Assembly: GCA_003388555.1 (NCBI GenBank)
Contig: QQVD01000022.1
Span: forward strand, 1 to 64,000
Direction: 5' to 3'
Source of the DNA: Acidobacteriota bacterium
GTDB lineage: Bacteria > Acidobacteriota > Thermoanaerobaculia > Multivoradales > Multivoraceae
Length of the DNA: 64,000 nucleotides
Shown here: piece by piece, positions 42,385 to 53,639 of the stretch
How positions within the stretch are numbered: the stretch's first letter is position 1
How the letters are laid out: every line of letters starts with the position of its first letter
The notes under the pieces: generated by a model
What the model saw: the letters and a program-made list of their open reading frames with translations, nothing else
What the model was told of the DNA's origin: nothing
The model's database searches: none
Program-made: the position numbers and the translations under genes

Positions 42385-42933
42385 TTGTCCGATCCTCCGC
42401 AACGATCTGCCCCGGTCGAAGTCTCGCTGAAGGTCAACGGCGAGCGGGTGACGCGCCGCGTCGAACCTCGCCTGTTGCTCTCCGACTTCCTGCGCCACGA
42501 GCTCGGCCTCACCGGGACCCACGTCGGCTGCGAGCACGGCGTGTGCGGCGCCTGCACCCTGCTGCTGGACGGCGACGCGGTGCGCTCCTGTCTGCTCTTC
42601 GCGGTGCAGTGCTCCGGCTGCGACGTCAGGACCGTCGAGTCGCTGGCCGGTCAGCGTGCCGGCGAAGGCGCCGCCACGGAGGATCCGCTGCATCCCCTGC
42701 AGGAGGCCTTCCGCGAGGAGCACGCTCTGCAGTGCGGTTTCTGCACCCCGGGCTTCCTGATGTCGCTGGTGCCCTTCCTCGAGCGTCACCCCGATCCCAG
42801 TGACGAGGAGATCCGCGAGGCCCTGTCGGGCAACCTGTGCCGCTGCACCGGCTACCAGAACCTCGTCGCCGCGGTGCGCAGCGCGGCCCGGCGGTTGCGC
42901 GCCGAGCCCGGCGAGCCCGACGCCGCGAGCTGA
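42385..42933 (+). CDS. [2Fe-2S] subunit of xanthine/CO dehydrogenase-family oxidase (CoxS-like)
   Basis: 182 aa from TTG 42385. No ribosome site is visible, but an AACAAT hexamer ends 6 nt upstream, so a leaderless start is possible. The N-terminal plant-type ferredoxin domain has [16 protein letters not shown]. The C-terminal helical domain has the second cluster cysteines ([14 protein letters not shown] and [11 protein letters not shown]). It passes electrons from the molybdenum centre to FAD. The S-L-M order with L following after 10 nt matches many carbon-monoxide-dehydrogenase-like or heterocycle-hydroxylating oxidases. Confidence 0.9.
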
Positions 42934-42943
42934 GGGCGCAGCG

Positions 42944-45328
42944 ATGGAAACGCGCTGGATCGGCAGGTCCCTGCCCCGCCTCGAGGACGAGCGCCTGCTG
43001 CGCGGTCGGGCACAGTTCGTCGACGACGTCGCGCTGCACGGCGCCCTGCACGTCGCCTTCGTGCGCAGCCCGTTCGCCCACGGGCGGATCCGTTCGATAG
43101 ACACCTCCGCCGCCGCGCGGATGCCCGGAGTGCACGCCGTCCTCACCGCCGAGGACCTCGGAAGGCTCGACGCGCCCGGCCCGGTGCTGGTGCCGCCGCC
43201 ACCGATCGACGGTATCGAGTTCCACGCCCGCACCCCGGCGCCCTTGGCGCGCGAGGTCGTGCGGCACGTCGGCGAGGCGGTCGCGCTGGTGGTCGCCGAC
43301 AGCCGCTATCTCGCCGAGGACGCGCGCGACGAGGTCTTCGTCGACATCGAGCCGATGCCGGCGGTGGGCGATCTGGAGGCGGCCCTCGCCGAGGACGCAC
43401 CGCGGGTCCACCAGGATCTGCCCTCCAACCTCGCCGCACGGACCCGCCAGAGCCGGGGCGACTGGGAGGAGGCGCGTCGCGCCGCCGATCTGGTCATCGA
43501 GCGCCGACTGGTCTACGACCACGGCGCCAGTGCACCGATGGAGAACCGCGGTGTCGCCGCTGTCTGGGACGAGCGCGCGGAGCAGCTCACCGTGTGGGAC
43601 ACCACCCAGGCGCCGATCCCGGTGCGCGGCGCGATCGCCGCGACCCTGGGTCTCTCGGAATCCCAGGTGCGGGTCATCGCGCCCTTCATCGGCGGCGGCT
43701 TCGGCCCCAAGATCATGTTCTACGGCGACGAGCTGCTGGTGCCGTGGCTGGCGATGCGGCTCGGCCGGCCGGTGAAGTGGATCGAGGATCGCGAGGAGAG
43801 CTTCTTCTCCACCACCCAGGAGCGTAGCCAGATCCACCACGCCGAGATGGCGCTGCGCCGCGACGGCAGGATCCTGGGGGTGCGCGACCGCTTCCTGCAC
43901 GACACCGGCGCCTACGACCCCTACGGCCTCACCGTGCCGATCAACAGCCAGTGCACCCTGCTCGGCTGCTACGACGTGCCGGCGTACGACAGCGAGTTCA
44001 CCTGCGTCTTCACCCATCGGCCCATCGTCACCCCGTACCGCGGCGCCGGTCGCCAGCACGGCGTGTTCGTCATCGAGCGGCTGCTCGATCACGCCGCCGA
44101 CGAGCTCGGCATCGACCGGGTCGAGATCCGCCGCCGCAACCTGCTGCACCCCGACCGTTTCCCGGTCCGCCAGGGGCTGATCTACCAGGACTTCACCGAG
44201 CTCACCTACGACAGCGGCGACTACCCGGCCCTGCTCGAGCGGGCTGCCGAGGAGATCGGCTACGAGCGCTTCCGGGCCGAAGAGCAGCCCGAGCTGCGCG
44301 CCGCCGGCCGCCTGGTCGGCATCGCCCTCGTCACCTACGTCGAGGGCACCGGCATCGGCCCCTACGAGGGCGCCAGGGTGCGGGTCGAGGCCAGCGGCAG
44401 GGTCGCGGTCGCAACCGGTGTCGGCACCCAGGGCCAGGGACACTTCACCAGCTTCGCCCAGGTGGTCGCCGACCAGCTCGGGGTGCACCCTGGCGACGTG
44501 CGCCTGGTCACCGGCGACACTCAGGAGTTCCACTGGGGCACCGGGACCTTCGCCAGCCGCGGCGCGGTGGTCGCCGGCAACGCCTGCCACGCGGCAGCGC
44601 TCGAGGTGCGGCGCAAGATCCTGCGGCTGGCCAGCCAGGAGCTCGAGGCTCCGGAAGAGGACCTGGAGCTCACCGGCGGCGTGGTGCAGGTGCGCGGAGC
44701 GCCGCAGAGCGCGATTCCGCTCGGCGAGCTGGCGCAGCGCGCCAACCCGCTGCGTGGCGCGGTCGAGCCGGGCACCGAGCCGGGCCTCGAGGCGACGTCG
44801 TACTTCGGACCCGCCACCGGCACCACCGCGGCCGGAGCCCACGCGATGATCGCCGAGGTCGACCCCGAGACCTGCAAGGTCACGCCGCTGCGCTACGTCG
44901 TCGTGCACGACTGCGGGACGGTGCTGAACCCGATGATCCTCGAGGGACAGATGCACGGCGGCATCGCCCAGGGCATCGGCAACGCCTTCTTCGAGGAGCT
45001 GGTGTTCGACGACCAGCAGCAACTGCAGAGCGGCTCCTTCATGGACTACCTGCTGCCGACCGCCACCGACGTTCCGGCGATCGAGAGCCACCATCTCGAG
45101 ACGCCGTCGCCGCTCAACCCGCTCGGCGTCAAGGGTGCCGGCGAGGCCGGCGCGATCCCGGTCGGAGCGCTCTACGCCGCGGTGGTCGAGGACGCGTTGA
45201 GCGGCCGGCTCGAGCCGGGCACGCGCATCGACTCGATCCCGCTGTCGCCCGAGCGGGTCTACCGCCTCCTGCACCCCGACAGCGAGCACACGGCAGAGAA
45301 CGAGGGCCACGAAGGAGACGCTCGGTGA
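42944..45328 (+). CDS. Molybdenum hydroxylase large subunit, form II CoxL-like
   Basis: 794 aa from ATG 42944 with GAGGG about 7 nt upstream. It carries the molybdopterin-cytosine-dinucleotide signatures: IAPFIGGGFGPKI, TPYRGAGRQHGVF, GQGHFTSFAQVVAD and the catalytic glutamate in GVKGAGEAGAIP. The active-site loop reads YRGAGR, as in form II (BMS) enzymes, not the AYRCSFR of true aerobic CO dehydrogenases. CO oxidation is therefore unlikely; hydroxylation of an aldehyde or N-heterocycle is more plausible (established family knowledge plus inference). Its stop overlaps the FAD-subunit gene by 4 nt. Confidence 0.92.
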   Translation: METRWIGRSLPRLEDERLLRGRAQFVDDVALHGALHVAFVRSPFAHGRIRSIDTSAAARMPGVHAVLTAEDLGRLDAPGPVLVPPPPIDGIEFHARTPAPLAREVVRHVGEAVALVVADSRYLAEDARDEVFVDIEPMPAVGDLEAALAEDAPRVHQDLPSNLAARTRQSRGDWEEARRAADLVIERRLVYDHGASAPMENRGVAAVWDERAEQLTVWDTTQAPIPVRGAIAATLGLSESQVRVIAPFIGGGFGPKIMFYGDELLVPWLAMRLGRPVKWIEDREESFFSTTQERSQIHHAEMALRRDGRILGVRDRFLHDTGAYDPYGLTVPINSQCTLLGCYDVPAYDSEFTCVFTHRPIVTPYRGAGRQHGVFVIERLLDHAADELGIDRVEIRRRNLLHPDRFPVRQGLIYQDFTELTYDSGDYPALLERAAEEIGYERFRAEEQPELRAAGRLVGIALVTYVEGTGIGPYEGARVRVEASGRVAVATGVGTQGQGHFTSFAQVVADQLGVHPGDVRLVTGDTQEFHWGTGTFASRGAVVAGNACHAAALEVRRKILRLASQELEAPEEDLELTGGVVQVRGAPQSAIPLGELAQRANPLRGAVEPGTEPGLEATSYFGPATGTTAAGAHAMIAEVDPETCKVTPLRYVVVHDCGTVLNPMILEGQMHGGIAQGIGNAFFEELVFDDQQQLQSGSFMDYLLPTATDVPAIESHHLETPSPLNPLGVKGAGEAGAIPVGALYAAVVEDALSGRLEPGTRIDSIPLSPERVYRLLHPDSEHTAENEGHEGDAR

Positions 45329-46251
45329 AGCCGGCGCCGTTCCGCTACTGCGCTCCGGAGACCGTCGACGAAGCACTCGAGCTGCTCGCAACGGGCGATC
45401 CGGAGGACGAGGTGAAGCTGCTGGCGGGGGGCCAGAGCCTGGTGCCGGCGATGAACTTCCGCCTCGCCCGACCGGGCCTGCTGATCGATCTCAACCGGAT
45501 CGCCGAGCTCGCCTCGATCGCCACCCGAGACGACGCCGAGGGGTCGATCCTGCGCCTCGGCGCCATGGTGCGGCAGAGCGCCGCCGAGCACAGCCCCGAC
45601 GTGGCGCGCCTGGCCCCCCTGATGGGCGAGGCGCTCCCCTCCGTCGCCCACACCCAGATCCGCAATCGCGGCACCGTCGGCGGCAGCCTCGCCCACGCCG
45701 ATCCCGCTGCCGAGCTCCCGGCGGTGATGCTGGCCCTCGATGCCCGCATGCACCTGCGCAGCGTGCGCGGCGAGCGCGCCGTCGACGCGGGTGACTTCTT
45801 CCTCGGCCTGTTCGAGACCGCCCTCGAGCCGGACGAGATGTTGACGGCGATCGAGATCGACGCTGCGTCCGCCGTCGAGGGCAGCTGTTTCGAGGAGGTG
45901 TCGCGCCGCCGCGGCGACTACGCCCTGGCCGGCGCCGCGGCGCGAGTGCGACTCGACGCCGACGGGACGTGCCGTTTCGCCCGGCTGACCTTCCTCAGCG
46001 TCGCCGATCTCCCCGTCCGCGCCCTCGAGGCGGAGCAGATGCTGCTCGGCGAGCGTCCGCACGACGAGCTCCTGCGCGCCGTCGCGGAGCACGCAGCCCG
46101 ACGGGAGATCGATCCCGGCAGCGACATCCACGCCAGTAGCGCCTTCCGGCGCCATCTCGCAGCCGGGCTGGCCCGGCGCACTCTGGCCACCGCGGTGAGC
46201 CGCGCCACCGCTGCGCACGGCGCCACGGACCACGGAGGCGCAAGCTCCTGA
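45325..46251 (+). CDS. FAD-binding subunit of the molybdenum hydroxylase (CoxM-like)
   Basis: 308 aa. GTG 45325 overlaps the large-subunit TGA (GTGA). FAD-binding motifs are LLAGGQSLVPAMNFRLARP near residues 32-50 and TQIRNRGTVGGSLAHADPAAELP near 110-132. The C-terminal CO-dehydrogenase flavoprotein domain includes FFLGLFETALEPDEMLTAIEI. It accepts electrons from the [2Fe-2S] subunit. Together with the two upstream genes it completes an S-L-M heterotrimer set. The cyclase gene follows after 40 nt on the same strand. Confidence 0.92.
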   Translation: MKPAPFRYCAPETVDEALELLATGDPEDEVKLLAGGQSLVPAMNFRLARPGLLIDLNRIAELASIATRDDAEGSILRLGAMVRQSAAEHSPDVARLAPLMGEALPSVAHTQIRNRGTVGGSLAHADPAAELPAVMLALDARMHLRSVRGERAVDAGDFFLGLFETALEPDEMLTAIEIDAASAVEGSCFEEVSRRRGDYALAGAAARVRLDADGTCRFARLTFLSVADLPVRALEAEQMLLGERPHDELLRAVAEHAARREIDPGSDIHASSAFRRHLAAGLARRTLATAVSRATAAHGATDHGGASS

Positions 46252-46291
46252 TCCAGAGACTCCACGACCACACTCGAGAACCGGAGACCCC

Positions 46292-47077
46292 ATGAAGCTC
46301 GTCGACCTGTCGCAGCCGCTGAACCAGGAGTGCTCCTTCTGGCCCTACTACCCGCCCTTCGAGGTCAAGTACATCAAGCGCAAGGCCGAGCACGGCGTCA
46401 ACGCCCAGTACATCCAGACCTCGAACCACATGGGCACGCACCTCGATGCGCCGAGGCACTTCGTCACCAACGGCATGACCATCGACGAGATCCCTCTCGA
46501 GTGGCTCTGCGGCGACGGTGTGATCGTCGACCTGAGTGACGCGATGGACGACCTCGGCGTGTACACGCCCGAGATGATCGAAGAGCGCGTCGAGGTCCGC
46601 GAAGGCGATCTGCTCATCCTGCACACCGGCTGGCACCGCTATGCGCAGTTCGGCGCCGAGCCCGACGAGGAGCGCTACATCCACCTGCATCCGGGCGCGC
46701 ATCCCGACATGGTCCCCTGGTTGCTGGAGAAGAAGATCCACATCTGGGGCGTCGACTGCATCTCCACCGACCACCCGATGAACCTGCCGATCGGCCGTTT
46801 CCTCGGCAAGGGCATGCACGGTCACTGCGACCGCGTGCGCGCCCTGGCGATCGAGAAGTTCGGCGAGGACCAGCTCGAAGAGCTCTTCCCCGAGGAGGCG
46901 TACCAGCTCACCCACAATGCCCTCTTCCCCGACAACTGCATGCACATCGAGAATCTCGGCGGCGACATCGACCGCCAGGACCTGCAGAACCGCCGCATGA
47001 AGATCGGTTGCTTCCCTTGGAAGTTCCGCGGTGGCGAAGCAGCCTTCTGCCGCGTGGTGGCGTTCCCCGATCTCTGA
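46292..47077 (+). CDS. Cyclase family protein (kynurenine formamidase-like metal hydrolase)
   Basis: 261 aa. GGAGA precedes ATG 46292. The metal-binding signature HMGTHLDAPRHF (HxGTHxDxPxH) is complete. The fold matches Pfam cyclase: kynurenine formamidase, isatin hydrolase and cyclic-amide hydrolases. The segment IHIWGVDCISTDHPMN and the C-terminal GMHGHCDRVRALAIEKFGEDQLEELFPEE are seen in the Asp/Glu-rich subgroup common in environmental bacteria, which is longer than KynB. It probably opens an amide or lactam ring. Being directly after the CoxSLM set suggests it acts on the hydroxylated product (inference). Confidence 0.88.
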   Translation: MKLVDLSQPLNQECSFWPYYPPFEVKYIKRKAEHGVNAQYIQTSNHMGTHLDAPRHFVTNGMTIDEIPLEWLCGDGVIVDLSDAMDDLGVYTPEMIEERVEVREGDLLILHTGWHRYAQFGAEPDEERYIHLHPGAHPDMVPWLLEKKIHIWGVDCISTDHPMNLPIGRFLGKGMHGHCDRVRALAIEKFGEDQLEELFPEEAYQLTHNALFPDNCMHIENLGGDIDRQDLQNRRMKIGCFPWKFRGGEAAFCRVVAFPDL

Positions 47078-47210: not shown

Positions 47211-48566
47211 ATGCGCTCGCCCTCGAATCACCCCGACTCACGCCGCGTCGCGGCCCAACGGCTCGGCTGCTGCCTGCTGCTGTTCTCAGGAGCCCTGATC
47301 GCCCAGGACTCCCCGATCGCCTTCGTCGGCGCCGAGGTGCTGCCGATCGCCGGCGACCCGATCCCGAACGGTGTGGTCGTCGTCCAGGACGGACGCATCG
47401 TCGCCGTCGGTGGCGCCGCGACCGCGGTGCCGGCCGGCGCCACCACCATCGACGTCGCCGGCAAAGTGCTGATGCCGGGGCTGGTCGACACCCACTCACA
47501 CATCGGCGGCCCGTCCGGCGGCGACAGCTCGTCGGCGATCCACCCCGAGACGCGGGCGCTCGACGCCGTCGACGTGCGCAGCGACGGCTTCTGGCGTGCC
47601 CGTGCCGGCGGCCTGACGACGCTCAACGTCATGCCCGGCTCGGGCCTGCTGATGAGCGGCCAGACGGTGCACCTCAAGCTGCGCAAGGACCCGCGCACGA
47701 TCGAGGACTGGCTGCTCTGCGACGACCCGATCGCCGAGGTCTGCGGCTCGATGAAGATGGCCAACGGCACCAACTCGATCCGTCAGCCGCCGGCGCCCGG
47801 CACCCGCGGCAAGAGCGCCGCGCTGGTGCGCCAGAAGTACGTGCAGGCGCAGGAGTACCGCGACAAGCTGCGTGACGACCGCGCGGGAGCGACGCCGCCG
47901 GCGCGCGACCTCGAGATGGAGGCGCTGGTCGAGGTGCTCGACGGCGAGCGCATCGTGCAGTTCCACAGCCACCGCCACAACGACATCTCCACCCTGCTGC
48001 GCCTGGGTCGTGAGTTCGGCTTCACTCCGGTGATCCAGCACGGCAGCGAGGCGTGGAAGGTCGCCGACCAGATCGCCGAGGCTGGGGTCGGCGTCTCGCT
48101 CACCTTCATCGACGCCTTCGGCGGCAAGGAGGAGGCGCTCGGCTGGACCATGGAATCGGGACGCCTGCTCGAGGAGGCCGGCGTCGACGTCAGCTTCAAC
48201 ACCGACGACGGCATCACCGACTCGCGCTTCCTGCTGCGTGCGCCGGCGATCTCGGTGCGCTACGGCATGTCGCGCCAGAAGGCGCTCGAGGGGGTCACCC
48301 TGGCGCCGGCGCGCCAGCTCGGGCTCGCCGATCGCGTCGGCTCGCTCGAGGTCGGCAAGGACGCCGATCTGGTGATCCTCTCCGGCGATCCGCTGAGCGT
48401 CTACACGCGGGTCGAGGAGACCTGGGTCGAGGGCGAGCGGGTGTTCGATCTCGACGATCCCGAGCACCGCAGGTACGCCACCGGCGGCTACGACGTGTAC
48501 AGGAACCTGGCCGACGTGCACGTGCACGACAGCGCCGCGGCGATCGAAGCTGGAGAGTGGCGATGA
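47211..48566 (+). CDS. Exported amidohydrolase (imidazolonepropionase-like), metal site intact
   Basis: 451 aa. CGGAGA precedes ATG 47211, and a signal peptide is likely (about 1-31, ending near GALIAQD). The metal ligands of the amidohydrolase barrel are all present: His95-x-His97 (MPGLVDTHSHIGG), a His-rich strand 5 (FHSHRHND, 251-258), His277 (VIQHGSEAW) and Asp332 (FNTDDGITD). It has the usual N- and C-terminal composite beta domain (VGSLEVGKDADLVILSGDP). The reaction is hydrolysis of a cyclic amide or peptide-like bond; the substrate is unknown. The next gene is a paralogue joined by an ATGA overlap that has lost every metal ligand. Confidence 0.9.
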   Translation: MRSPSNHPDSRRVAAQRLGCCLLLFSGALIAQDSPIAFVGAEVLPIAGDPIPNGVVVVQDGRIVAVGGAATAVPAGATTIDVAGKVLMPGLVDTHSHIGGPSGGDSSSAIHPETRALDAVDVRSDGFWRARAGGLTTLNVMPGSGLLMSGQTVHLKLRKDPRTIEDWLLCDDPIAEVCGSMKMANGTNSIRQPPAPGTRGKSAALVRQKYVQAQEYRDKLRDDRAGATPPARDLEMEALVEVLDGERIVQFHSHRHNDISTLLRLGREFGFTPVIQHGSEAWKVADQIAEAGVGVSLTFIDAFGGKEEALGWTMESGRLLEEAGVDVSFNTDDGITDSRFLLRAPAISVRYGMSRQKALEGVTLAPARQLGLADRVGSLEVGKDADLVILSGDPLSVYTRVEETWVEGERVFDLDDPEHRRYATGGYDVYRNLADVHVHDSAAAIEAGEWR

Positions 48567-49882
48567 CCCCGGCGATGATGACACCCGTGCGAAGCGACGA
48601 CCGGGCCCCTTCCGTCATCCGTCACTCGAGACTCGCGGCAGCCACGATCGCCGGCCTCCTCTCGGCGATCGGCGCCGCGCTCCTGGCCGCTCCGCTCGGC
48701 GCCCAGGTCGCGGTGCGCGGCGAGTTGGTCTACACCCTGGCGGCCGACCAGCCGCTGCGCGACGCCGTGGTCGTCGTCGAGGACGGCCGCATCACGGCGG
48801 TCGGGCCGGCCGCCGAGATCGTGATCCCGGCCGGCGCCAGGCAGCTCGAAGCCGCCGTCGTCACCCCCGGCCTGGTCGACGTGCGTTCGACGCTGGGGCT
48901 CTCCGGCGCCTACAACAGCAACGTCGGTCCGGTGCGCGATCAGGACCAGCTCGAGACGTCGAGCCCGATCCAGCCCGAGCTGCGCGCCATCGACGCCTAC
49001 AACGCACGCGAGGAGCTGATCGAGTACGCCCGTGGCTTCGGCGTCACCACCATCCACACCGGACACGGCCCCGGGGCGCTCGTCTCGGGCCAGACGCTGA
49101 TCGCCAAGACCCGTGGCGACAGCGTCGAGGAGGCGGTGATCGAGCCGGTGCGCATGCTCTCGGTGACCCTCGGCGACCTCGACTCGGACTTCAAGAGCCC
49201 CGGCACGCGCGCCAAGGGCATCGCGATGCTGCGTGGCGCCCTGCTCGAGGCGCGCGAGTACCGCGACAAGCGCGCCGAAGCCGCACGAGGCGACGAGGCC
49301 GGCTCGGGCGACGAGGAGAAGAAGAGTCTGCCGCGCGACCTGCGCAAGGAGACCCTGGCCCGGGTGCTCGATGGCGAGATCGGCCTCATGGTCGGAGCCA
49401 ACACCGCGGTCGAGATCGCCTCCGCCCTGCGGCTGCGCAAGGAGTTCGGCTTCGAGATGGCGATCGACGGCGGCGCCGAGGCCTACCTGGTGCTCGACGC
49501 CCTGCGCGAGTCCGGCGTGCCGGTGTTCCTGCACCCGCCGAGGGCCCGCATCCGCAACAAGAACATCGAGATCGCCAGCATCCTGCGCGACGCCGGCATC
49601 CCCTTCGCGGTGCAGACCGGCCACGAGGCCTACGTGCCCAAGACCCGGGTGCTGCTCTTCGAGGTCGCCCACTACGCCGCCTGGGGACTCTCTGCCCAGG
49701 AGGCGCTGGCCGCGGTGACCCGCGATGCGGCGCGCCTGCTCGGCATCGACGAGCGCGTCGGCACCCTCGAGGTCGGCAAGGACGGCGACCTGGTGCTCTT
49801 CTCCGGCGATCCCTTCGAGTACACCAGCCAGGTCTGCGGGGTGGTGATCGAAGGCGAGGTGGTCAGCGAGACCTGCCGGTGA
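48563..49882 (+). CDS. Exported amidohydrolase paralogue lacking all metal ligands (probable pseudoenzyme)
   Basis: 439 aa from ATG 48563, overlapping the upstream stop by 4 nt. A signal peptide is likely (about 20-48). It aligns along its whole length with the upstream amidohydrolase (for example LVDVRSTLGL vs LVDTHSHIGG, EIASALRLRKEFGFEMAIDGGAE vs DISTLLRLGREFGFTPVIQHGSE). Each ligand is replaced: Arg108/Thr110 for the HxH pair, Gly-Ala-Asn around 278-280 for strand 5, Gly303 for His277, and Gly353/His354 for the catalytic Asp region. The fold and the C-terminal VGTLEVGKDGDLVLFSGDP are intact, so it is not a decayed gene. It is probably a non-catalytic partner. Confidence 0.85.
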   Translation: MTPAMMTPVRSDDRAPSVIRHSRLAAATIAGLLSAIGAALLAAPLGAQVAVRGELVYTLAADQPLRDAVVVVEDGRITAVGPAAEIVIPAGARQLEAAVVTPGLVDVRSTLGLSGAYNSNVGPVRDQDQLETSSPIQPELRAIDAYNAREELIEYARGFGVTTIHTGHGPGALVSGQTLIAKTRGDSVEEAVIEPVRMLSVTLGDLDSDFKSPGTRAKGIAMLRGALLEAREYRDKRAEAARGDEAGSGDEEKKSLPRDLRKETLARVLDGEIGLMVGANTAVEIASALRLRKEFGFEMAIDGGAEAYLVLDALRESGVPVFLHPPRARIRNKNIEIASILRDAGIPFAVQTGHEAYVPKTRVLLFEVAHYAAWGLSAQEALAAVTRDAARLLGIDERVGTLEVGKDGDLVLFSGDPFEYTSQVCGVVIEGEVVSETCR

Positions 49883-49928: not shown

Positions 49929-50159
49929 GTGGTGAAGAAGACGACCCTCTACCTCCCCGACGATCTCAAGGCCGCGCTCGAACGGCTGGCGGCGGAGAGG
50001 GGCAGCTCCGAGGCGACGATCGTGCGTGAGGCGCTGCAACGCCTGCTCGCGGAACGGCAGCGACCCCGGCCCCGCGTCCCCCTGACCGGCAGGGGCTTGG
50101 GAGATGCATCGATCGCCGAGCGAACCGACGAACTGCTGGCAGGGTTCGGACAGGGGTGA
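49929..50159 (+). CDS. vapB: Ribbon-helix-helix antitoxin (VapB-type)
   Basis: 76 aa from GTG 49929; GTG 49932 is the alternative. The N-terminus (KKTTLYLPDDLKAALERLA, then GSSEATIVREALQRLLAE) is a ribbon-helix-helix DNA-binding domain of the CopG/MetJ type. A disordered Arg/Pro-rich C-terminus probably wraps the toxin. No ribosome site is visible. It overlaps the toxin gene as GTGA, the standard coupling for toxin-antitoxin pairs. The pair sits between two catabolic genes on the same strand. Confidence 0.88.
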   Translation: MVKKTTLYLPDDLKAALERLAAERGSSEATIVREALQRLLAERQRPRPRVPLTGRGLGDASIAERTDELLAGFGQG

Positions 50160-50572
50160 TCCTGGTCGATACGAGCGGGCTCCTGGCGGCCCTCTTTCCG
50201 GATCAGACGCACCACCAGGAATGCGCGACAGTGCTCGCTGGCGACGGTCCCTTCGTCCTCTCCCCGTTCGTGCTCGCCGAGCTCGACCATCTGGTCGGTT
50301 GTTTCGCCGGATTCGATGCCCGCCAGGCGCTACTGGAGGAGGTCGTTGCCGGCGCGTACGACCTTGCGCCCTACGACGCCACGGATGTCGCGGAAGCAGC
50401 CAGCATCGGCAGCCAGTATGAGGATCTCGATGTCGGGCTCGCCGACGCCTCCATCGTCGTCCTGGCCCGCCGATCGGGCACCATCGACCTGCTGAGTCTC
50501 GATCAACGGCACTTCCGAGTACTGAAGGGGCCCGACGATCGTCCGTTCCGCATCCTTCCCTTCGATGCCTGA
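50156..50572 (+). CDS. vapC: PIN-domain ribonuclease toxin (VapC-type)
   Basis: 138 aa from GTG 50156. PIN-domain acidic residues are in place: Asp5 (ILVDTSGLL), Glu42 (VLAELDHL), Asp97 (GLADASIV) and Asp116 (SLDQRHF). This gives a Mg-dependent endoribonuclease site typical of VapC, which cleaves tRNA or rRNA when freed from VapB. The last 8 nt overlap the amidase start codon, so toxin and amidase genes are physically fused in one transcript. Confidence 0.9.
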   Translation: MILVDTSGLLAALFPDQTHHQECATVLAGDGPFVLSPFVLAELDHLVGCFAGFDARQALLEEVVAGAYDLAPYDATDVAEAASIGSQYEDLDVGLADASIVVLARRSGTIDLLSLDQRHFRVLKGPDDRPFRILPFDA

Positions 50573-51977
50573 AGACACCGCCGATCCCACCCTGCTCGGC
50601 GCCTGCGCGCAGCGGGCGCTGATCGCCCGCCGCGAGCTGCTGCCGAGCGAGCTGATCGAGCGCACCCTCCAGCGCATCGAGCGCCTGAACCCGCGGCTCA
50701 ACGCGGTGGTGACGCTGTCGCCGAGCGCGCTCGACGAGGCGCGGGCGCTCGACCGGCGGCTCGAGCGCGGCGAAGGCGAGAGCCTGCCGCTGTGCGGTCT
50801 GCCGGTGGGGATCAAGGACGTGACCCCGGTGGCGGGGCTGCGCTGCACTTACGGCTCGCCGCTCTACCGCGACCACGTCGCCGGCGAGGACGCGCTGGTC
50901 GTGCGACGTCTGCGTGCCGCGGGCGCGGTGATCGTCGGCAAGACGAACACTCCCGAGTTCGCCACCGGCGGCAACACCTTCAACGAGGTGTTCGGCCGCA
51001 CCCACAACCCGTGGAATCCGGAGCTCTCGGCCGGTGGCTCGACCGGCGGCGGCGCCGCGGCACTGGCCAGCGGCATGATCTCGATCGCCGAAGGCACCGA
51101 CCTGGGCGGCTCGCTGCGCATCCCGGCGTCGTTCTGCGGCATCGTCGGCCTGCGCCCCTCCCCCGGCCTGGTGCCGACCTGGCCGAGCGACTACATCTGG
51201 GACACGCTGCAGGTGACCGGACCGATGGCGCGCACCGCCGCCGACGTGGCGCTGGCGCTGCAGGCGATGGCGGGCAACGATCCCCGCTGGCCGCTGGCGC
51301 AGCCCGGCGGGCGCGACTTCGTCGCCGCGGCCGGTCGCGAGGCACCGCTGCGAGCGCGGCGCTTCGCCTACTGCCCCGACATCGCCGGCATCGGCGTCGA
51401 CGCCGGCATCGAACAGGTGGCGCGCGAGGCCGCCTTCGCCCTGCGTGACGCCGACGCCGAGGTCGAGGAGATCGAGCTCGACGTGCGCTACGCCAAGGAG
51501 GCGTTCCTGGCGCTGCGCGGCCACTGGATGGTGGTGCAGCAGCTCGATCGCCTCGAGCGCAAGGCGGAGTTCGGCGACAACCTGCGCGGCAACGTCGATG
51601 CCGGTCTCGCGCGCACCACGCTCGAGCTCGCCGCGGCGGAGCACGGCCGCGCCCGTCTCTGCGCCGAGCTCGGCGAGCTCCTGGAGAGCTTCGATCACCT
51701 GATCACTCCGAGCATGGCGGTGCCGCCGTTCCCGGTGAGCGAGAACTACCCCACCGAGGTCGGCGGCCAGCCGATGCAGACCTACGTCGACTGGATCGCG
51801 CCGACGTTCATCCTCAGCCTCAGCGGCCTGCCCGTCGCCTCGGTGCCCTGCGGCCTCGACGCCGCCGGGCTTCCGGTCGGCCTGCAGGTCGTCGGAAGAC
51901 GCGCCGCCGAGGAGGAGGTGCTCGCCGCCGCGGCCGGCATCCAGGCGCGCTGCCCGATCGGCCTACCGCAGCTCTGA
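50565..51977 (+). CDS. Amidase signature family hydrolase
   Basis: 470 aa from ATG 50565. The Ser-cis-Ser-Lys triad is intact: Lys84 (LPVGIKDVTPVAG), Ser159 (SAGGSTGGGAAALASG) and Ser183 (EGTDLGGSLRIPASF). The length matches stand-alone amidases; it is not GatA since no gatB or gatC is nearby and the C-terminus differs. It hydrolyses amides to acids and ammonia; the substrate is unknown. In context (molybdenum hydroxylase, cyclase, amidohydrolases, nucleobase-type permeases) it may release nitrogen from a ring-opened heterocycle (inference). It is convergent with the broken NCS2 permease, 21 nt away. Confidence 0.92.
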   Translation: MPEDTADPTLLGACAQRALIARRELLPSELIERTLQRIERLNPRLNAVVTLSPSALDEARALDRRLERGEGESLPLCGLPVGIKDVTPVAGLRCTYGSPLYRDHVAGEDALVVRRLRAAGAVIVGKTNTPEFATGGNTFNEVFGRTHNPWNPELSAGGSTGGGAAALASGMISIAEGTDLGGSLRIPASFCGIVGLRPSPGLVPTWPSDYIWDTLQVTGPMARTAADVALALQAMAGNDPRWPLAQPGGRDFVAAAGREAPLRARRFAYCPDIAGIGVDAGIEQVAREAAFALRDADAEVEEIELDVRYAKEAFLALRGHWMVVQQLDRLERKAEFGDNLRGNVDAGLARTTLELAAAEHGRARLCAELGELLESFDHLITPSMAVPPFPVSENYPTEVGGQPMQTYVDWIAPTFILSLSGLPVASVPCGLDAAGLPVGLQVVGRRAAEEEVLAAAAGIQARCPIGLPQL

Positions 51978-51998
51978 CCGGGCCGGAGCAGCGGCGGC

Positions 51999-53639
51999 TC
52001 AGCCGCGCCGATCCAGCGGACGATCGGGGCCGAGCAGTACCTGCAGCGTCACCCCGACGAGCACCGCGAGCACCACCGAGTTGCCGAGCACCAACGACAG
52101 CGCCGCCGGTCGCGCGGCGAGCCACTCGGGTCCCAGAACGCGCTCGACCACCACCGGCGCTGCGAGGGCCAGCACCAGGGTCGTCCCGGCGATCAGTGCC
52201 TGGCGCTCGCCGAGCCCGCCGTCGGCTCCTTGGCCGAGAAGCCGCAGCCCGGCGACCACGATCGAGCCGCAGATCAGCACGAAGACCCCGCCGAGCACCG
52301 GCCGCGGCATCGCCACCAGGAGGGCGCCGAACTTCGGGCACAGGCCGTAGAGCAGCAGCACGCCCGCCGCGATCTGGACGACGAAACGGCTGGCCACGCG
52401 GGTGGTCGCGATGATGCCGATGTTCTGGGTGTAGCTGGTGCACGGCAGCGCTCCCAGGACCGAGGCGAAGGCGGAGCCCAGCCCTTCGGCGAGGATGCCG
52501 CGGTTCATGTGCCGCTCGCGGTAGGCGACGCCCGCCACCTCGCAGGTGGCGGCGTAGTCGCCCAGCGACTCGACCATCGAGCCGAGGTAGGCGGCCAGCA
52601 CCACGAGCACCGCGGCGAGCGGGAACTCCCAGCCGAAGCCAGGACCACCGTACGGGAAGAGTTGCGGCCAGGCGAGCCAGGGTCGCGACGCGACGAGGCT
52701 CCACTCGACCTCACCGGCGACGCTGCCCAGCCCGAGCCCGACCACCCAGATCGAGACGAAGATCGCGCCGCGCGCCAGGATCCCACCCAGCACCTCGCGG
52801 GCGCCGAGCTGGAGCGTCAGCACAGTGGCCACCACTCCCAGGGCGAACGCCAGATCGATCACCCGGCCGGCGCCGATCGAGAGTCGCACCGCGACCTGGC
52901 CGAGCGCCAGGCCGATCACCACGATCACGGTGCCGCAGACCACCGGCGGGAAGAAGCGCCGCACCCGGCCGACCAGCCGGAGCCCTCCCAGCGACGCCTC
53001 GGCGAGGCCGCCGACGAAGACCGCGCCCCACATCGCGCCGGCGCCCACCTGCGTCGCGAGCGGCGCCAACACCCCGACTAGGGGCTTGCTGAAAAAGTCC
53101 TGTGGGCCTCGTTTCGAGCGCCGTTGGCCTCAGATCCTGTGGCGCGCGAGCGATGGCAATGCGGTGCCATTGTAGAGGGAGCGCAACGCAGGAGATGGGT
53201 CAACGCCGCCGAAACCCGCAGGGCGCGGGGGTTTGCGCCGCCTGGCCGCGTTGGGCCTCCTCCACGATGGCACCGCATCGAGCTCGTCGGCCGCGCCACG
53301 ACCAGACGACGCAGATCCCCGCGCGAGGCTCCGCAGGACTTCTTCAGCAAGCCCCTCCCGTCGCCGAAGGACCCTGCACGATCGGCAGGCGGTTGCCCAG
53401 AGTCGTCTGCAGCAGCGTCGCGAGGCCCATGGCGATCAGGCCAAAGCTGATCAGCTGCGCCGTCTGCGCCGCGTCGAAGCCGAGCCCCGAGGCCACCGCC
53501 AGCGGCAGGATGAACGGTGAGACGTCGACCAGCGTGTGCTGCCAGCCGTAGAGCAGGCTCTCCCAGAGGCGACGAGGCCGCTCCTCGACTCCGTAGAGCA
53601 CGCCGCCGTCTGCCGGCGTGGCCGGCCCGGTGGGTTCGC

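Follow-up and report, generated by a model that had tools for sequence, protein, structure and literature searches.

Two overlapping genes in the window (the whole stretch of 64,000 nucleotides that was analysed, from an Acidobacteriota contig) probably encode the two subunits of one exported hetero-oligomer. Reading from sequence, and with a probability of about 0.7, we propose that the first product (A) is an exported metal-dependent amidohydrolase and that the second (B) is its obligate non-catalytic paralogous subunit.

The gene pair and its reading frames

Both genes open with ATG, and their G+C content at third codon positions (0.929 in A, 0.936 in B; 0.48 at the second position in both) is coding-like. 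The proteins align over their length, as a sequence-only reading of this DNA had claimed (BLASTP, 149 identities in 402 positions, E 5e-59), and the ATGA overlap that it reported agrees with our coordinates, start codons and lengths throughout (Table 1). Each protein exceeds the Pfam gathering score for Amidohydro_1 and Amidohydro_3. Tight spacing is common among relatives: taking as the start of B the ATG nearest the stop of A, a choice that favours short spacings, the distance is below zero in 59 of the 76 related pairs, 36 of which have a value of -4, and no more than 50 bases in 73.

Table 1. Features of the A/B locus, in window coordinates.
Feature	Position	Strand	Remarks
Gene A, amidohydrolase with signal-like N-terminus, 451 aa	47211..48566	+	Complete site H95, H97, K182, H252, H277, D332
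Gene B, full-length ligand-less paralogue, 439 aa	48563..49882	+	R108, T110, S200, G278, G303, G353 at ligand positions
ATGA overlap, A stop codon under B start codon	48563..48566	+	
A hydrophobic segment, signal-peptide-like	47238..47300	+	Helix 10-30 of model
B hydrophobic segment, signal-peptide-like	48623..48685	+	Helix 21-41 of model
B residues 111-133, loop after strand 1, N118/D126/Q127/D128	48893..48961	+	Conservation and low pLDDT
B residues 353-363, strand-8 loop GxExYVPKTRV	49619..49651	+	Near-invariant in B; residues 351-360 low pLDDT

The metal site is complete in A and replaced in B

The amidohydrolase site has six positions, and A carries all of them: H95-S-H97, K182 on strand 4, H252, H277 and D332. 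This HxH-Lys-His-His-Asp set, which we take to be a two-metal site with a carboxylated lysine, is conserved in A, whereas all six residues are replaced in B. The sequence-only reading had listed His95-x-His97, a strand-5 histidine, His277 and Asp332 in A, each of which we recovered, with H252 as the strand-5 residue; its list was accurate as far as it went and missed the sixth conserved position (K182 in A, S200 in B). That strand-4 lysine is present in 188 of 188 aligned intact domains, some places being counted twice among them, versus none of 105 B-type domains, a set from which fully intact domains are excluded by definition.

The same reading held that B had lost every metal ligand. This stands for the protein in the window and not for its relatives, since the first strand-1 histidine is kept in 60 of 90 unique B domains; the remaining ligand positions are absent in all 90, save for one gap at strand 8, in a set that again leaves out fully intact domains by definition. 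The strand-8 column varies with the placement of gaps (E355 in one alignment, G353 in others) and never holds Asp. The second strand-1, the strand-5 and the strand-6 histidines are missing from every one of 80 named B loci; because the scan patterns were drawn from two B loops, the search itself partly favours loss at strand 8, though not at the other positions. Homologues with restored ligands, which would speak against a non-catalytic role, did not appear: 102 domains were selected solely on the B motif DQDQ, and the HxH motif, the strand-5 and strand-6 histidines and the strand-8 aspartate are absent from all of them.

B has conserved residues of its own. N118, D126, Q127 and D128 each occur in 90 of 90 domains, with N118 and D126 opposite gaps in A, in a set picked partly by the N118-D128 loop motif, so that conservation of the loops used as scan patterns is itself partly conditioned. 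H165 (90/90), H168 (89/90), D302 (88/90) and H324 (88/90) are likewise conserved in B and differ in A. These four raise an improbable alternative, namely that B is an enzyme with a rebuilt site, in which H165, H168, D302, H324 and E355, close to the mouth of the barrel, coordinate a metal or perform acid-base chemistry, A and B catalysing two steps of one pathway; the examined part of a review does allow that catalytic residues may have migrated in some pseudoenzymes (PMC10211241). The residue set is, however, unlike the ligand pattern of amidohydrolases, D302 lies beside the lost strand-6 position (G303) and so could be directed out of the pocket, E355 falls in a low-confidence stretch of the B model, and the fusions described below, like the arrays in which divergent inactive copies are numerous, suit subunits better.

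Some partner proteins retain partial ligand sets. Three (L208-L210) keep H97, H277 and D332 and one (L207) keeps H97 and H277, and these may represent intermediate stages in the loss of ligands. As partial losers occur in other subclades, the loss of some ligands probably happened on more than one occasion. We also observed that all four of these proteins have a histidine at the strand-4 lysine position.

Predicted structures

AlphaFold2 monomer models, built on 54-row alignments, have a mean pLDDT of 87.1 for A and 86.7 for B and a pTM of 0.85 each. The B model aligns over the whole domain to Thermotoga maritima 3ooq (Foldseek 2.7e-32; VIA Z 48.0, rmsd 2.0 A over 370 residues), the next entry having a Z of 26.8, which predicts for B a complete amidohydrolase barrel that lacks the metal site. 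The fold previously described as intact is thus recovered at the level of a predicted model, and so is the proposed signal peptide of B, the N-terminus being a predicted helix of hydrophobic sequence, as in A. 3ooq is also the best PDB sequence match of A (6.5e-53 vs 1.4e-21 for the next) and of B (9.1e-37 vs 1.8e-09), that is, the nearest solved structure to both by sequence and to B by fold too; its PDB title names no specific function.

The low-confidence blocks of the B model (residues 111-130 and 351-360) coincide with segments that are near-invariant among B proteins, and in A the invariant G304, G305, K306 and E308 sit in a low-confidence block at 301-310. From these models we infer that the conserved loops of A and B may become ordered on a partner or a ligand.

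Distribution and co-occurrence of A and B

A scan of a genome collection with the B alignment returned at least 580 relatives, the best 80 of which were taken as named loci. These cover 11 named phyla (Acidobacteriota 31, Planctomycetota 19, Balneolota 6, Rhodothermota 5, Bacteroidota 4, Gemmatimonadota 4, Calditrichota 3, Pseudomonadota 2, and Myxococcota, Ignavibacteriota and Chlorobiota 1 each, with 3 lacking a phylum). Most come from metagenome bins, so that some labels may be wrong; two named strains, Pyrinomonas methylaliphatogenes (L136) and Altererythrobacter lutimaris (L110), are among them. In 76 of the 80 loci the gene immediately upstream of B, in the same orientation, is an intact A, and in the other four (L082, L087, L129, L138) the contig stops before A could fit.

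Searching 297 genomes of the window's phylum with A, with the five best candidates per genome scored, gave 46 genomes at E 1e-128 or better, followed by a gap to 7e-74. Rare co-occurrence would have counted against the pairing, and B adjoins A in all 46, as judged from DNA in 41, from match coordinates in four (G005, G008, G011, G012) and, in G195, from A coordinates that match those of the P. methylaliphatogenes genome. Thirteen of the 46 belong to the window's own family, and in one genome (G024) B is split across two contigs. Among 59 Planctomycetota genomes A was found at 3e-130 or better in seven, with B adjacent in 7/7, one of them (G100) being the chosen centre. Single in-frame stop codons occur in some A or B matches of three genomes (G007, G093, G259) and may be alignment edge effects.

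Across 191 aligned loci, several of which are one place reached twice, 181 combine an intact domain with a non-intact or partial one, three have intact domains only and seven non-intact domains only. The seven lie at contig ends, as do two of the three intact-only loci (L063, L066), the third being the solitary L218. In viral contigs, one pattern-based scan with the A alignment matched 78 stretches, none of them a relative.

Selection, co-inheritance and phylogeny

Median dN/dS is 0.193 for A (range 0.079-0.562; 104 usable pairs) and 0.176 for B (0.092-0.605; 102 usable pairs) over 15 related loci, by the NG86 method, which is rough at this G+C content. Selection on B is therefore not visibly relaxed relative to A, and the earlier claim that B is maintained agrees with both its low ratio and its retention across phyla. 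A decaying duplicate on its way to becoming a pseudogene would account for the replacement of all ligand positions in the window's B. On the sequence evidence we nevertheless reject this explanation and give it almost no weight: the frame is open, the protein is kept in 11 named phyla, and its dN/dS is as low as that of A.

Distances among A proteins correlate with those among B proteins (Mantel r 0.804 over 90 unique pairs, 9 of 99 having been dropped as duplicates), a value reached in none of 2000 permutations, the best of which gave 0.145. This correlation is a sign of joint inheritance and not of contact, as correlated trees of A and B are expected from vertical co-inheritance alone.

In a tree of 96 domains with ligand columns masked, active and inactive states are explained by two changes of state, and single ligand positions by three to seven changes each; this tree leaves out the arrays L205, L216, L217 and L219, some of the rows whose ligand strings were incomplete, nine A/B loci removed by thinning and three outgroups from the window's own genome. 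B-type domains together with their own fused forms make up one clade, and A-type domains with theirs another. The active domains of a second pair type and those of the triples also form clades. The inactive partners of the second pair type appear as one weak clade with FastTree, which gives a long-branch warning, versus a series of branches in the 96-row tree, and the split between active and inactive forms may be a single event or several. 3ooq and L218 are placed among the active domains, which would fit either a loss of pairing in these proteins or its gain in others.

Fusions, triples and arrays

In three Planctomycetota loci (L199, L200, L201) a single open frame encodes both an A-type and a B-type domain, with more distant A matches (E 1e-97 to 4e-105). 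A hydrophobic N-terminus follows a clear start in L199 and L201, and no second one was found at the fusion junction of any of the three. Further active-inactive fusions occur in the window's phylum (L206, L213). The first of these, in a 2.1 Mb genome, has three alternating active/inactive pairs in a row, the last of them fused.

Other relatives combine one intact domain with two inactive ones. The second cluster of the window's own genome (L042, 4288-8906) encodes an inactive and an intact domain in a frame of 1091 residues, with a signal-like segment after the likely start, and then another inactive gene. Similar triples were seen in several other genomes of the same order. The largest loci are co-directional arrays in Planctomycetota, where four genomes reach nine domains: two with one intact domain each (L222, L223), one with its first domain cut by the contig end, one intact domain and one with four of the five His/Asp ligands (L226), and one with two intact domains (L227). 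Two more arrays hold at least eight domains with one intact within the stretch covered (L225) and six with two intact (L228).

Taken together, natural fusions, gene overlap and co-inheritance suggest, indirectly, an A-B heterodimer. Two proteins that serve one pathway without ever touching could also be co-inherited and fused, and B might be exported and act on its own, binding the substrate or product of A as, for example, a sensor, scavenger or carrier, with co-expression but no contact between the two. Conserved residues near the barrel mouth of B are in keeping with such a role, and gene overlap by itself is no proof of contact; we nonetheless consider it unlikely in view of the natural single-frame fusions and the near-strict adjacency of A and B.

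N-terminal segments in paired and solitary proteins

A signal-like hydrophobic segment reaches the hydropathy cut-off in 59 of 62 A and 71 of 72 B proteins, once those with fewer than 15 residues upstream are dropped (14 of 76 A, 8 of 80 B). A plasmid-collection search with B yielded four records at E 1e-30, from Bacillota and Actinomycetota (L233-L236). These and L218 have the HxH motif (the remaining ligands were examined in L218 alone) and are solitary, with a single family domain within the 7-8 kb examined. None of the five reaches the cut-off for a signal-like N-terminus, measured on a somewhat shorter stretch than in A and B. In the cases examined pairing and predicted export go together, the solitary ones being few (n=5). 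The solitary relatives also show that the amidohydrolase fold does not need a partner.

Genomic neighborhoods

In flanks of 2.5-4 kb the largest cluster of real-looking ORFs besides A and B is present in 11 of 80 loci, nine of them of the close clade, and one neighbor cluster extends beyond that clade to two Balneolota loci. A function read from the neighbors is unsupported, as only A and B are widely common in the flanks examined.

Within the window itself, a ribbon-helix-helix protein and a PIN-domain protein, toxin-antitoxin-like, lie directly downstream of B (49932-50572). Molybdenum hydroxylase subunits, a PF04199 cyclase, an amidase and a xanthine/uracil-type permease surround the pair (42800-47077 and 50565-53072). 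These surroundings resemble a cluster for the breakdown of nucleobases or cyclic amides and are not widely common to the pair elsewhere.

Comparison with known active/inactive pairs

Bacterial M16B peptidases offer a parallel: in the examined part of one account, TTHA1264/1265, SPH2681/2682 and AlbF/AlbE are heterodimers of an active metallopeptidase and an inactive paralogue, the partner of TTHA1264 being the product of the neighboring gene, and FusC and PqqL are single-chain forms (PMC12731061). As far as that text goes, the likeness to A and B is that the metal motif is present in just one of the two subunits, and the differences lie in an unrelated fold and chemistry and in nine-subunit arrays, which it does not mention for M16B. 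The sequence-only reading had not recognized an exported enzyme-pseudoenzyme pair of this kind as described; on the examined text, active/inactive metallopeptidase pairs with another fold are known in bacteria (PMC12731061), and for amidohydrolases we found no account of such pairs among the papers listed by an open-access library. A and B match amidohydrolase families only and not the M16 peptidases, and the resemblance is one of analogy, not kinship.

Dihydroorotase has the amidohydrolase fold, and the inactive dihydroorotase homologue associated with Pseudomonas aeruginosa aspartate transcarbamoylase (ATCase) is cytoplasmic. According to the examined portion of the source, that homologue is needed for the activity of its partner enzyme (PMC7053772); on the same text it is unlike B in that the partner is a transcarbamoylase and not its own active paralogue. 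No aspartate transcarbamoylase gene was found among ten ORFs scanned around A and B, two of which match no family. In trypanosomatid AdoMetDC prozyme and in FAM20A/FAM20C, as far as the examined parts of the sources go, the live enzyme becomes active when it heterodimerizes with a dead paralogue or pseudokinase (PMC5201418, PMC6221367, PMC10211241); unlike A and B, these systems are eukaryotic and have other folds. The words heterodimer, inactive and paralog are absent from the examined text of a preprint on a metallo bile salt hydrolase (PMC13081902).

Proposed mechanism and its meaning for the family

We propose that A catalyses hydrolysis with its own metal site outside the cytoplasm. Going by the default of the amidohydrolase family, the bond that it cuts would be an amide or a peptide-like one. 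B, made from the overlapping gene, would likewise be exported and would join A as a permanent non-catalytic subunit, the two assembling outside the cytoplasm into a hetero-oligomer. Loops 111-133 and 353-363 of B and loop 301-310 of A may become ordered at the A-B contact, where they could shape, complete, gate or close the active site of A. By analogy with the inactive half of M16B peptidases, the part of B might be assembly, activation or the holding of substrate, and in the wider family one catalytic subunit would be joined by two, or up to eight, inactive paralogues.

A and B are probably an enzyme and its obligate inactive paralogue, in an arrangement that would be exported and ancient and that reaches nine domains in one phylum. 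More tentatively, and at slightly less than even odds in our estimate, exported hetero-oligomeric amidohydrolases form an ancient class in which live subunits are permanently matched or outnumbered by inactive paralogues (1+1 in the window, 1+2 in the partly fused triples, and nine-domain forms in Planctomycetota with one or two live subunits), the inactive ones having taken over substrate recognition or chamber building, as in other ring complexes.

If the proposal is true, many automatically called amidohydrolases are non-catalytic subunits, B having at least 580 relatives; the B of the window scores 44.1 against a Pfam cut-off of 25, though it is ligand-less. Screens that express the active gene alone may then miss the true enzyme. 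The fused A-B versions suit structural work, and the loci offer a natural series of solitary, paired, triple and nine-domain forms for asking why dead enzyme copies persist. The logic of active and inactive metallohydrolases seen in M16 peptidases would then extend to an unrelated superfamily.
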